NCBI GenBank assembly: GCA_002286715.1
Contig: NSJX01000027.1
Coordinates: forward strand, 310,001-374,000
DNA length: 64,000 nucleotides
Direction of reading: 5' to 3'
DNA from: Dentipellis sp. KUC8613
Taxonomy: Eukaryota; Basidiomycota; Agaricomycetes; Russulales; Hericiaceae
The position numbers and the translations under genes are program-made. Below the pieces are notes generated by a model that was not told the origin of the DNA, ran no database searches, and saw nothing but the letters and a program-made list of their open reading frames with translations. This document shows, in pieces, positions 58,275 to 64,000 of this stretch. How positions within the stretch are numbered: the first letter of the stretch is position 1; each line of letters begins with the position of its first letter.

Positions 58275-58880
58275 GTGTGGGAGGGGGCAAGTAAAGCAGT
58301 ATCGTACGGGTGGGTGTAAGATATGATTTGTGTTCTTGGGTCTTGGGTCGTGGGTCTCGGGCGGTCGACGTGCGACGGGTGTATATTGCAGACAGACTAC
58401 AGTGACAGCTACTATTAGTATTACTTAGAGCAAGCTAGCATCCATCCATCTATTTCTATTGCATTTTTGTAGATCTTCTTTTCTCTGTCATTCTCTGTCT
58501 CATTCTGGGCTTGCAGGCTGTGGGTTCTTGATGGTAGAATGGATGTGTTCCTTGCACTGTTGGTGCTCGTCCCTGCCTCCCTGCCTTCCTTGCTTCATCA
58601 CTGGACTGAATCTCACCTTGCCCCTGCTTCCCTGTGCTCCATCTCTCATGAGGTCATAGAGTAATATGAACACATATTGTACATTGATTGATTGGCCACT
58701 ACACACTGCATATGTACACAGAACTAGTACATATAGTAAGATACATGGCTGAATCATGAAAAATTGGCATGGTAAGTAGATTCTGAAGTAACAGACAGAT
58801 TGATGAGCCTGTAATGTTGGTGTCAGTATTCCATTTCATTGACATTCTCAGGAGAAAGAAGAGAAAAATACTTACCTCAG
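58275..58880. other. Convergent 3' region of TPS2 and NLR
   Basis: Holds the TPS2 3' UTR and, on minus, the NLR 3' UTR with a good intron at 58809-58875. GC content drops from the TPS2 side to the NLR side. No further gene seen. Confidence 0.5.
58809..58875 (-). other. Predicted 3' UTR intron of the NLR gene
   Basis: Directly after the NLR stop (58881-58883) the minus strand has GAG|GTAAGTA, a branch-like AATACTGACACC and ATTACAG|G, bounding a 67-nt intron that begins five bases past the stop codon. All signals are strong, so it is probably spliced in the 3' UTR. Confidence 0.5.
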
Positions 58881-61800
58881 TTATTTTGCACCATATCTGT
58901 GCAACAATTGAATCATGTCTTCATGATCATGTGCTGCTTCCAGTGCTGTGCCATATTTACCAGCTTGTGCATTGACCTCAGCACCTTCTTCTAGCAGAAT
59001 CTGAGCAATTTTTGTGTTGCCCCTCAATGATGCAGCAATGAGGGCTGTGCCATGTACACCAGCTTGTGCATTGATCTCAGCACCTTTTTCTAGCAGAATC
59101 TGAACAACATTTGTGTTGGCCCTCAATGATGCAGCAATGAGAGCTGTGCCATATCCACCAGCTTGTGTATTGATCTCAGCCCCTTTTTCTAACAGAATCT
59201 GTGCAATTTCTGTGTTACCCATCGATGATGCAGCTATGAGGGCTGTGCCATGTACACCAGCTTGTGCATTGATCTCAGCACCCTTTCCTAGCAGAATCTG
59301 TGCAATTTCTGTGTGACCCTGCAATGATGCAGCAATGAGGGCTGTGCCATGTACACCAGCTTGTGCATTGATCTCAGCACCTTTTTCTAGCAGAATCTGA
59401 GCAATTTCTGTGGAACCCCTTGATGATGCAGCAATCAGGGCTGTGTCATAATGACCAGCTTGTGCATTGACCTCAGCACCTTGTTCTAGCAGAATCTGAG
59501 CAATTTCTGTGGAACCCCTCAATGATGCAGCTATGAGGGCTGTGCCATAATGACCAGCTTGTGCATTGATCTCAGCACCTTTTTCTAGCAGAATCTTAGC
59601 TATTTCTGTGTTACCCCCCAATGATGCAGCTATGAGAGCTGTGCCATGTTCATCAACTTGTGCATTGATCTCAGAGCCTTTTTCAAGCAAGAGCCTCAGA
59701 ATCTGGCTATTACCTACCTGAGAGGCTCTGATAAGTGTAGTTTTTCTGTCCCATTGCATATTTACATTAGCTTCCTGTGACAGCAGCCACTCAATTATTT
59801 GAAAATTCTCATTATTTATTGCAGCATGTAATGCACGACTTAACTCTAGTCCATTGACCATATTATTGCTGTGCAACAGCTTCAGCATATCTAGCTTACC
59901 AATTGCACTACTACACCAAGCTGGAGAATGTTTGATCCTCCTAAATGGCCATGAGGAATAGCCACAGATGGTGTGATCTATTCTAACCTGTCTTTTTTCT
60001 CCAAATAGATGTAGTATATAGTCACATATATTCTTATTGGGGTCTAGCTCTGCATTCTGAATATGTTTGAGAACAAATTTTTTTGTGTATGTTTCAATCA
60101 TCCTCAAGTCACTATTGTCCTCTGTTGATACTAGAAAATACAAACAGCTTTGAGCAATCATTGTGTGAGAAACTGATAGATTTATATGATAAGGATTTGA
60201 CTGAGAGTCACCAGAGGTGAGGTATTCCTTGACAGAGAAGTGGCAAAACTGTATGCGTTCATTTGATTCAATGATGAGACTAGAAATAGGTCTCAACATG
60301 TTTGAAAAGTCTGGAAAGAGTGACTCTTTAAATTTAGGATGGGCTTCTCTGTATGATATCCCCACTGCTGCAGCTAGCTTACTCTTTGTGAGAGGCTGTT
60401 CAGAAAATGCAATCCAGCTGAGCATCATATGAAATATCTCTGCTTCTTTAGAGTCTATCCTCTGCAGAATGTTCTTGTATGTCTCCTCTAGGTCTTTAGG
60501 CAAATTATCCAGTACAATTCTCAATGCAACTCCTGAAGCACATTTCTTTAGTTCTTTGATCTGATATGAAACCCAAAGAAACCTATAAATATTATTGCTC
60601 AGTATATGTAAATCAAACCAGCATATGAAATGACTTACATTCCATCAGCTTTGCAAAGTAGACTGTCTCTGATTTGTTTTTTCAAGCCAGCATCATAATG
60701 TTGAAAGATACTGTCTGTCTGCAGCACAGTGGACAGATATGTTTCAATATCATTGTGCACCAGCCTGTCAAGATCTATAGAGTGAGACACTTTTTTCTGC
60801 TTGAAACAATCTTCAATATCAACTTCAGAGCGACTTGTGGCTAGAAAATGCACAGAGTAGTCTTTTCCAAGCATTATTTTATCCAGAAATGGCAATAGAA
60901 AATCATGTCTATCCTCTGGAAGACATTCATCCAGAGCATCCAGAACAATGTAAGCAGAGTTCAGCTGCTTCAAGATATCCCCAAGAGCATCATGTAGTTT
61001 CTGCCTGCTAGGCTGCATGTGACCATTGTCATGATCTGCATATAATTTTTTCAACACAGCAAAAGCCCCAGAGCTCTGATAACCAAGTTGCTTGACAAGA
61101 GACTGCAGCATGCCATGGCAATTTTGCTTTGATGGATCTCTGAAGTCAAAGTAGAAGAAAGCAACTGCACAAGAGGCTTTGAACCTGTGATCTTGCAACA
61201 TGTTGATGATTGTTGAACTACAATAGCTTCAGTCTTTCATATAAACATGGAAATATAGAATTTGCACAGGCTTACCACAATACACTTTTACCACCCCCAG
61301 CTGTAGACTTTATCAGCAAGAGATCACTGTCAGCACAATAAGATGCACTTGCGTTTGCCATGCAGCCACATTGAAGAATGGATACTGTGCATCCACTCAA
61401 CAAAGTCACTGTTTTGAAAAATCCATTGACCAGTCTTCTGCCCCTGTTTCACCTTATCTTGTGCTGCATTATGATTCACAGATGGATCAGGAGCAGCAAG
61501 CCACCCAAAGCATTTGTCATCTTCTGCAATGGACAAGTATCAGCCATGCAATTCCAAAGAAGAGTGAACAATGTATACTTTGAGTTTCTGTAAGATCTAC
61601 CATTTTCTGCAATGTCTGGCCAACTTTGCTGTGTATGTCTGCCAGGGCAGCAAGAGCCTCTTCCTTTGTCAAATCACTTAGCGTTTGCAGTGCATCCTCC
61701 AAAGCACTATCCTTTGCAAGAACACTATGAAAGAAATGCCCTTCACTTTAACGTAAGCAACCCAAATCACCATGTATCATCAGGAGAATGACATACTGAG

Positions 61801-62410
61801 ATAGCCTCTTTTGATGTCTTTTGTCACCATGCCAATGATAGAAAGTAGATGCACAAGTATCTCTACAAGCCTCTGCTGCAATCCATGAGAGATACTGCTC
61901 TTGACATATGTCTTGCAACGTTCAAGGAATGCTTGCATCCTTACAAAGATGTTGATGATAGCCTTGTAGCGAGCACTGACATTGTCGGCAGCCTGACAGA
62001 TGGTCATTCAATTGAGCGACATGCAATGGTAAACTGATGAGCATACGTCGAGAAGCAGCTTTACAGCCACAAATACAATCTTCGCTGGGGGGAATGCCTG
62101 AAATTATCATCACATAAGGACTATTGCCTTTATGAAGAAACACTCGACGCACCGCCTCTACAGCCTCACCCGCAATGTCCGCAATTGTCTGGATTACGTC
62201 GAGGACAGGCTTCACGGCTCCTTGTATCTTCTCTACTTGCTTATGATAGTTCTTGAACTTCTTCTGCTCGCCGTCTATGATCCCTAATAACTCGTCTGGG
62301 CTGGTGATGTTCACAAAATTGTGAGAAGCGTCCATGATGTTGATCTTCATATCGGCCTCGTATTGCTTGATCGCTGAGGCCCATATGTCAGAGAACTGAT
62401 TGTCGGCCAT
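58881..62410 (-). CDS. NLR: Goodbye-NACHT-ankyrin STAND receptor
   Basis: Predicted fungal NOD-like receptor of the STAND NTPase class. Eight exons (62153-62410, 62047-62097, 61797-61992, 61579-61740, 61353-61523, 61276-61300, 60639-61217, 58881-60582) total 3144 nt, giving 1047 aa in unbroken phase. N-terminal ~200 residues match the Goodbye effector-type domain: FSDIWASAIKQYEADMKINI, AFPPAKIVFVAVKLLLDAAD, then RLVEILVHLLSIIGMVTKDI and KEEALAALADIH. A linker with CFGWLAAPDPSVNHNAAQDK precedes the NACHT: Walker A WLHGKPGGGKSVLC (split by a GC-AG intron), Walker B IVLDALDEC, sensor-like FLATSRSEVDIE, then GMFLWVSYQIKELKKC and LPKDLEETYKNILQRI typical of this group. The C terminus is an ankyrin array with seven near-identical 33-aa units. 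No frameshift or stop; it appears intact. Codon use is AT-rich unlike its neighbours. Ligand and output are unknown. Confidence 0.94.
58959..59651 (-). repeat. Seven 99-nt ankyrin repeat units in the NLR
   Basis: Exactly seven 99-nt units encode 33-aa ankyrin repeats of the pattern xxGTALIAASxxGxTEIAQI and LLEKGAEINAQAG. They are bounded by more diverged units on both sides (RKTTLIRASQVGNSQILRLL before, KYGTALEAAHDHEDMIQLLH after). Differences fall mainly at repeat positions 1-2 (EH, HY, VH, GY) and 10-14 (LGGN, LRGS, SRGS, LQGH, SMGN, LRAN, LRGN), the loop and groove positions that normally contact ligands. Confidence 0.92.
61301..61352 (-). other. GC-AG intron within the Walker A codons of the NLR
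   Basis: 52-nt intron with donor C|GCAAGT, branch-like TTGCTGATAA and acceptor CTACAG. Removing it is the only phase-consistent way I found to join WLHGK to GGGKSVLC; no GT-AG pair does so. GCAAGT is the consensus form of GC-AG donors. Confidence 0.8.
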
Positions 62411-64000
62411 TTGAAAGCGACGGGATAGCCCAATGGTATGTGATGGGAGGTAGCTCGCTCGATGGCGATGGTGCGATGGTGAGAGCTGGAAGGAAGACGC
62501 CAGCCCGCAAGGCTTGCGTGTGGGTCGCGGGCGTCAGGCTGTTTCCGAGGGCCGGCAGGTAAACGCCAGGTGCACAGATAATACATGTTTGGGAAGACCC
62601 ACAGCAAATGTACTCGCTCGGTACGTTGGCAGAACCTCTATGCGACGCCAGAACTTACGAATGTGCTACCGGGAAGATCAAAATTGGTTAGAACACTAGA
62701 TAACTCGAGGAAGCGGTAGCACGTCGAACATAGGCTATCCAAAAGGCGGACGACGAGTACAGCTGCAGGCGAAGAAGCTAGTAGATCGTTAGTAGCTGGC
62801 GCTGGAAAGACCTGTGAGACAAGGAGATTGACAGCAGGCGATGACCCGACGGTGATGATGAGAAGGTGGTAGTTCGGATGAGTTTCGCGACTGTAGTGGG
62901 ACAGAGGTCAGAATGAGTTGTTGTGGCACGAGCCGTGCATGGACTCACTATATTGACTTTCTGCAGACACCTCAATTCCAGGAGCTTCACGAGTTTTCCT
63001 AGGAAGAAAGACATGGAAGAGGTGCGGATAAACGCAGAGTTGACACGGCCCGGCTGCAAAACGAGCGTGTGCTGCAACGGTCGGTTTGCCATTGCGCCAC
63101 GTCTCGAGAAATGTTGACCATCTCGCCCAACGAGTTCTGTCTAGCACTCCGTAGACCAGGTCCAGGTGCGCCTATTGGAATTTCCTAATCGTCCCGAATG
63201 TACTAACATACGTGTCCATTAGCGCATCGAAGACGCCAGCTCCGCCCGCTTCAAAGGCATCGACGCGGATTCGCACATTGAGTCCTCACGATCCACCCGT
63301 CTTCCTCAATAACGTCATCAAGATATTCTCTCATGTAGACGAGTCTATGCCTCGATATTGGTAGACAAGATTGGTACGTACCACTCGCTCTAGGCATATT
63401 CCGACGTATCGTCTGCTGTCCCTACCTCCATCTCCGAGTCCACTATTTTCGCTCTTACACAGGATCGCCCCTGTAATAGCATTCCTCTCGCAAACTCGGC
63501 ACTCCTCAAGCCCATACACAAGGTTCTCACCGTGCTACTGATGACCAAACGACGTCACAACCCGGGGACGTTGCATATATCGCCGTCCAGCGGACGAAAT
63601 GGTGCGGCCTTGGGCATGGTGTGTGCTCTCTTCTTCATGCGCGCGTCGACTGGGCGAAGAACCAACCAAACGGTAGACGTAAGTATTCTCAGCGGCCAGC
63701 GTTGGAGAGAGTAACCATTTCGAAGCACTGTGAGGGATCTACCGGATACATCGCAACAACGAGAAGCTCTGACATAGCCTTATAGGTGCGTCTCTTTCGT
63801 TGTGCTCGTGTCCTGCAGGCCGTTCGTACTGAATTTCTGGGGTTTCAGGTCCGCTGCTGGACGAGCGCGTGGTCGGAACGGCCATTCCTGAAGTGTTGCC
63901 GGTCCGAGGATTCTTGACTTGAGTCAGCTCTCCTACACTACCATTCATTAGACAGGGATGTGAGAACCCATGGAGCCTCAACAGCTACGGATCCGCGACG
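62411..64000. other. No gene recognised (right edge)
   Basis: Contains the NLR promoter region. Short frames occur on both strands without a motif or coherent splice chain. A gene may begin near 63540 on plus and leave the window, but nothing supports naming it. Confidence 0.45.

Follow-up and report, generated by a model that had tools for sequence, protein, structure and literature searches.

A nearly CpG-free gene body in the Goodbye-NACHT-ankyrin receptor family of Dentipellis sp. KUC8613, consistent with lasting methylation

The window analysed here is a 64,000-nt stretch of the genome of Dentipellis sp. KUC8613 (G000:C92:310001-374000), and close to its end, on the minus strand, lies a gene of eight exons (58881..62410) that encodes a Goodbye-NACHT-ankyrin protein of 1047 aa plus stop codon, i.e., a receptor of the NOD-like (NLR) type. 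From exon 3 to about 0.5 kb beyond the stop codon this gene has lost nearly all of its CpG dinucleotides, and the same loss, with edges that follow the gene, is found in all nine paralogs of the family. In the following sections the locus is described and it is argued that the CpG desert is probably a footprint of methylation.

The Receptor Gene and Its Domains

The gene was rebuilt from splice signals, and all exons (62410-62153, 62097-62047, 61992-61797, 61740-61579, 61523-61353, 61300-61276, 61217-60639 and 60582-58881) are joined in phase by seven introns of 52-58 bp each. Intron 5 (61301-61352, 52 bp) is of the GC-AG type and sits within the codons of the NACHT P-loop; its excision yields the canonical HGKPGGGKS. 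A public protein of the same strain (P0001, DENSPDRAFT_931704, partial, 714 aa) is identical to residues 1-714 letter for letter, therefore all seven introns match an independent model, and the intact, eight-exon, in-phase gene proposed by the initial annotation is confirmed. The public model ends at residue 714, right before the near-identical ankyrin array, as its comparison with positions 58881-60300 shows. The model P0016 of the same strain, on contig C97, is likewise partial; annotation is dropping sensor arrays. With public models of this family breaking off at the repeats, the sensor parts will be undercounted in surveys of fungal NLRs.

The domain content that had been read from the letters, a complete Goodbye domain, Walker A and B and an ankyrin array, is confirmed. 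In Pfam searches the Goodbye domain (residues 10-132, exons 1-3; 61906..62383 on the minus strand by the exon model) matches PF17109 with 89.0 bits over profile positions 1-120 of 120; NPHP3_N is matched with 134.7 bits, NACHT with 31.6 bits (cut-off 26.7) and ankyrin models with E values down to 6e-52. Walker A, GKPGGGKS (residues 278-285; 61284..61359, minus strand), is interrupted by the GC-AG intron, and its P-loop residues are conserved in at least 90% of the 44 rows of an alignment, in which D381, A382, L383, D384 and E385 of Walker B, YIVLDALDE (residues 376-385; 60926..60955, minus strand), are invariant. The domain order is Goodbye-NACHT-winged helix-ankyrin, so that the protein combines the features by which fungal NLRs of the STAND (signal transduction ATPases with numerous domains) class are recognised: a NACHT with both Walker motifs, C-terminal superstructure-forming repeats and a Goodbye N-terminal effector domain. 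Judged from its sequence, the gene encodes an all-in-one fungal NLR.

By analogy with the family, the variable face of the ankyrin array would be the place where a ligand binds and is sensed, the NACHT would switch and oligomerise, and the helical Goodbye domain would execute the response, probably cell death; a role in allorecognition, symbiont sensing or cell death may be proposed on the same ground. The executioner step rests on the literature, since the Goodbye model, when searched against solved structures, matched none of them with confidence; no HeLo or MLKL chain stood among the matches listed, an outcome that does not exclude such a fold. A search of the PDB with the first 481 residues gave a single weak, unusable match (E 0.0013), and a PADLOC scan of P0001 matched no family.

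The remark that no effector partner is encoded nearby holds for the part scanned. On the far side, four open reading frames (ORFs; 62371-63785) contain no Pfam domain, and the neighbour on the near side is a trehalose-phosphatase gene whose ORF is listed to 58274. The missing partner is not a gap, because Goodbye-type N-termini are described as fused "all-in-one" effectors (PMC12881547).

The Ankyrin Array

The array consists of seven near-identical ankyrin repeats of 33 aa (residues 794-1024; 58953..59645, minus strand) with a period of 99 nt, for which Tandem Repeats Finder reports 7.5 copies and 88% matches. Their mean identity is 0.87 in nucleotides and 0.80 in amino acids. Repeat statistics were drawn from seven loci; the diverged repeat that opens the window array was omitted, as were two initial matches in L010 and one each in L011, L012 and L024, while L013 (2 repeats) and L025 (6) were not used. 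In five of the seven usable loci the repeats are clearly closer within the locus than between loci (in the window locus 0.87 within and at most 0.70 to others), the exceptions being L011 (0.70 within, 0.73 to L012) and L024 (0.59 within, 0.58 between).

Repeat positions were compared with the randomised positions of DARPins, whose set and numbering we take to be the usual ones and whose register is borne out when the array is aligned to DARPin 6mol. Nonsynonymous differences cluster at these positions (permutation P 0.022 in the window locus, 0.0001-0.011 in the other six), and the five most variable positions of the pooled repeats are 3, 13, 14, 2 and 5, position 33 falling outside them. In the window array the nonsynonymous-to-synonymous ratio is 1.35 at binding-surface positions and 0.52 elsewhere; at the binding-surface positions of the other loci it is 0.44-1.13, hence positive selection as such is not established. 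The pattern of variation agrees with that published for the ankyrin NLRs of Podospora (PMC4986451). The solved structure 6ne1, a "Pfs, NACHT and Ankyrin domain protein", is among the matches of the array and is a possible template for the sensor.

The Paralog Family and Its Mosaic History

A profile search of the contigs found nine Goodbye matches, every one within a Goodbye-NACHT-ankyrin locus: C92 has four (the window gene plus three between 259 and 289 kb), C97 has three, and C119 and C81 have one each. In the C97:39k paralog a run of N takes the place of most of the array, and a 5305-aa open frame at C97 was discarded as an artefact of an N run. Several CpG-poor NLRs (L013, L014, L032, L033, L037) have such runs, which are assembly gaps or withheld letters, within their repeats or next to them. 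Outside this genome the closest relatives come from Dentipellis fragilis, where P0122 shares 76% identity over the Goodbye part and P0004 70% over the aligned part of the NACHT region; other Goodbye-NACHT-ankyrin proteins were found in Lactarius, Russula and Amylostereum. The search for stand-alone Goodbye relatives gave one protein, a D. fragilis fragment, a weak negative given the length and word limits of the search.

Synonymous divergence among the nine paralogs is mostly above 1, and dN/dS (the nonsynonymous-to-synonymous rate ratio) of the window gene against its paralogs is 0.16-0.48 where defined, which places the framework of the receptor under purifying selection. The window gene and the C97:39k paralog share about 2 kb of non-coding DNA upstream, 78-92% identical in four blastn pieces, whereas synonymous divergence (dS) reaches 1.27 in the Goodbye exon, 1.57 in the NACHT exon and 0.65 in the winged-helix part. 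Coding DNA is thus less alike than the DNA upstream, which indicates exchange of modules. In the NACHT-exon tree the C97:39k gene groups with D. fragilis P0002 (support 98/96) and in the winged-helix tree with the window gene (100/99); P0002 has no winged-helix row, the NACHT tree does not settle where the window gene belongs, and long branches were flagged. These data show that the history of the family is mosaic, module by module.

The CpG Desert

The desert of the window gene (58378..61919) takes in part of exon 3 and the rest of the gene up to exon 8, introns 3-7 and about 0.5 kb beyond the stop codon, and by change-point fit and CpG list it holds 8 CpG where 153 are expected. On the 3' side it stops roughly 0.1 kb short of reaching back into the trehalose-phosphatase ORF, just past the end listed for that frame. 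Exons 1-2, the start of exon 3 and the upstream region (61920..64000) are CpG-normal, the upstream DNA shared with the C97:39k paralog continuing past the window end. Counted in 1-kb bins, the observed-to-expected (o/e) ratio of CpG drops to 0.04, 0.06 and 0.13 across the gene, whereas the 61 remaining bins of the window have 0.86-1.33; of 128 half-kb bins, 121 are CpG-normal. The GC profile drops sharply at the gene (0.42 vs 0.56 for the window), as it does in the examined paralogs (0.38-0.43 vs 0.52-0.59 in their flanks), and by our arithmetic CpG loss accounts for roughly half of the gene's GC deficit against the window mean. The pattern by which a body-methylated gene is recognised, a ratio well below 1 in the body with the 5' end spared, was found.

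The initial annotation had noticed an AT-rich island. The compositional shift is real, but it was overlooked that the AT-richness is largely a sharp-edged loss of CpG and that the gene belongs to a set of nine paralogs. A separate history of this single gene is not supported by the AT-richness: the depletion is CpG-specific, is common to all nine paralogs and starts about 0.5-0.6 kb inside the gene, the promoter side being normal. Over the nine paralogs the change-point fit gives 82 CpG inside the deserts against 1538 expected (ratios 0.037-0.069) and ratios of 1.05-1.18 outside, a loss of about 95% in the gene bodies. The 5' edge falls 491-623 bp after the ATG in 9/9 (one ATG was extrapolated), and of the eight paralogs with a stop codon, five have their 3' edge 485-550 bp beyond it and three at +297, +756 and +1746.

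That the loss is specific to CpG follows from synonymous sites. In the nine paralogs C- and T-ending codons that precede G stand at C:T 3:299 in exon 7 and 1:295 in exon 8, compared with 332:381 and 386:489 before other letters, and with 100:89 before G in the CpG-normal exon 1. From the gene's own codon usage 47.5 CpG are expected at the codon junctions of exons 3-8 and 1 is seen, while in exons 1-2 there are 11 for 13.0 expected. Introns 3-7 together hold one CpG and the 3' flank one. TpG (1.64) and CpA (1.49) are both in excess, which matches deamination of methylated CpG on both strands.

Deserts are not confined to the family. The NACHT loci checked (22 of the 24 behind 25 matches, leaving out C80:1329701 and C128:240112) split cleanly into 13 deserts (CpG o/e 0.04-0.19) and 9 normal loci (0.91-1.21), the 13 comprising the nine paralogs, a fragment at C97:16.5k and loci on C27, C150 and C107. 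The fragment, L028 (C97:16531-16920, CpG o/e 0.06), has a reverse transcriptase in its neighbourhood and is apparently a broken family member that retains the desert. The genome encodes DNA-methylation enzymes, as PF00145 and Tet_JBP matches indicate, and among five DNA-methyltransferase (PF00145) matches two lie in deserts, L039 (C22:530k, 0.05) and L041 (C128:631k, 0.29 over about 3 kb), and three are normal (0.94-1.18). L039 and L041, which we presume from their motifs to be of DNMT1 type, have no tandem repeats. The genes of the methylation machinery may thus be marked like the receptors. CpG-normal were all 8 reverse-transcriptase loci sampled from 24 matches (0.80-1.17; the open frames are long in most of them, which may therefore be young), 4/4 P450 loci sampled of 114 matches, the one TET/JBP locus sampled of 9 (1.01), 6/6 non-NLR ankyrin or WD40 loci and 20/20 random segments drawn from 18 contigs (10.96 of 34.1 Mb).

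Origin of the Desert

CpG loss that is keyed to the gene body, spares the 5' end, affects both strands and is nearly complete is best explained by CpG methylation. We consider it probable, on the grounds of sequence, that the desert is the footprint of lasting CpG methylation of gene bodies, in receptors that also undergo repeat homogenisation and module exchange. In this mechanism CpG methylation would be upheld over many generations on transcribed bodies, the 5' ends being spared, in cells from which the next generation descends; 5-methylcytosine would turn to T by deamination, and the near-complete loss of CpG (to TpG and CpA) would be the equilibrium. The targets would be a chosen set, i.e., the receptor family, the three other NACHT loci and the two DNA-methyltransferase loci, with retrotransposons and duplicated genes in general left outside it.

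Several observations weigh against this explanation. Among the 3' edges the one at +1746 stands out from the rest. After dinucleotide normalising, TpG-CpA double changes are not enriched over ApC-GpT changes in the arrays (0.45 vs 0.61) or in paralog exons 7 (0.82 vs 0.89) and 8 (0.86 vs 1.23); present diversity among copies is therefore not fed by recent CpG decay. Position 9 of the window array does carry TTG, TCA and TCG codons, yet this is a single column. Furthermore, transposons and repeats are the described targets of methylation in fungi, gene bodies being largely spared (PMC7862722, PMC13297926). Finally, L032, a NACHT ORF that lies in a desert, shows a quite usual Arg/Lys ratio (0.54). 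The proportion Arg/(Arg+Lys) is 0.23-0.40 in nine D. fragilis homologs, while 15 proteins of Lactarius, Russula and Amylostereum reach 0.57-0.74, and by this proxy the same desert is perhaps suggested in D. fragilis. The proxy is not relied on here, given L032 and the low values in other fungi: Amanita rubescens (0.38), Mycena pura (0.33) and Athelia (0.44).

The main rival is a repeat-triggered process in the sexual cycle, CpG-directed and akin to repeat-induced point mutation (RIP) or methylation induced premeiotically (MIP), that senses the internal tandem arrays and spreads across the gene. Clear 99-bp arrays are indeed present in six of the nine paralogs (7.5-16.9 copies), the NACHT-WD40 gene on C150, the one desert of this kind whose repeats can be read, has WD40 repeats in 3.1 copies that are 88% alike, N runs lie at the repeat part of L013, L032, L033 and L037, and none of six CpG-normal NACHT loci scanned as controls has an array. 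Yet deserts occur where such arrays are missing, in L024 (no array; copies 59% alike), L025 (2.2 copies), L039 and L041, the last two giving no blastn match to each other, which weakens internal tandem repeats as the sole trigger. Moreover, the edges track the ends of the gene and not the array, the reverse-transcriptase loci are normal, and the gene shows no rise of TpA/ApT (0.55 vs 0.66 for the window), for which reason simple RIP was rejected. A repeat trigger would account for the array-bearing receptors but seems unlikely.

Codon bias, mutation biased towards AT in general or mRNA-level selection against CpG, acting without methylation, would account for a GC content of third codon positions of 0.39 and for C being somewhat rarer before letters other than G in the desert exons. 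Such causes are improbable, because the introns and the 0.5 kb beyond the stop are depleted as well, exons 1-2 escape the depletion although they belong to one message with the rest, and TpG and CpA rise together. That the gene is a decaying relic, as the partial public model and stop codons in six-frame matches of some paralog stretches (for which introns could account) might hint, is very improbable in the face of an intact 1047-aa frame with its catalytic motifs and of the dN/dS values given above. Horizontal transfer from a CpG-poor donor, which the low GC of the gene could have suggested, is disfavoured as the least credible of all, since the desert begins inside the gene after CpG-normal exons 1-2 and recurs in nine paralogs mostly diverged beyond a dS of 1, unrelated NACHT and methyltransferase loci have it too, and the best relatives are in D. 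fragilis and other Russulales.

Gene-body methylation thus remains the preferred explanation, and a wider proposal, for which we would claim slightly less than an even chance, is that Dentipellis has a gene-directed CpG methylation programme that acts on the bodies of chosen innate immune receptors and of DNA-methyltransferase genes, starts at a fixed distance from the start codon, ends just past the gene, erases nearly all CpG and halves the arginine of the receptors. Such methylation may control how receptor genes rich in repeats are expressed or shield them from illegitimate recombination. Should the desert indeed stem from methylation, a mushroom-forming lineage marks its immune receptors epigenetically at a mutational price, and the evolution of receptors is linked to the methylation machinery. 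The sampled transposons retain CpG while about 95% is gone from the receptor family within gene-shaped edges, and the AT-rich island is explained without horizontal transfer.

Comparison with Known Systems

The protein is another member of an already known kind. The gene-shaped erasure of CpG is, as far as the literature could be searched, undescribed; no account of CpG-depleted NLR gene bodies in fungi was found in the open-access literature searched, as far as its text was available. A rust fungus study reports raised gene-body methylation on lower-expressed alleles (PMC12129025), and a study of Sordariales finds NLR numbers without a strong tie to RIP (PMC12258605).

The closest receptors are fungal NLRs with homogenised ANK, WD40 or TPR repeats (the het-e/het-d/het-r family and the ANK and TPR NLRs of Podospora anserina; Dyrka et al., 2014, PMC4986451), which share with the Dentipellis family the N-terminal effector, the NACHT, the repeat array, the similarity of repeats within a locus and the variation of the concave binding face. 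The Dentipellis genes differ in being basidiomycete Goodbye-NACHT-ankyrin genes, with bodies nearly free of CpG, in the one genome compared; relative to the line drawn there for high internal conservation (>85% identity over 100 aa), the window array, above it in nucleotides (0.87), falls below by amino-acid identity (mean 0.80). With the Goodbye, HeLo and MLKL-like domains (Wojciechowski et al., 2022, PMC9815663) the gene shares a full-profile PF17109 match and an all-helical model; the structure search gave no confident match, and pore formation by Goodbye domains in general is putative according to that paper.

The desert resembles the gene-body CpG methylation of animals and plants in its CpG-poor body, its TpG and CpA excess and its spared 5' end, but the depletion in Dentipellis is about 20-fold and limited to few gene families, in a fungal group whose methylation is described as directed at transposable elements (PMC7862722, PMC13297926). 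With the genome defences RIP and MIP it has in common the C-to-T type of loss and repeat-bearing genes among the targets; unlike in these, the context is CpG, there is no rise of TpA, the sampled retrotransposons are spared, the genes are intact under purifying selection, and the desert edges stand at fixed distances from the gene ends.
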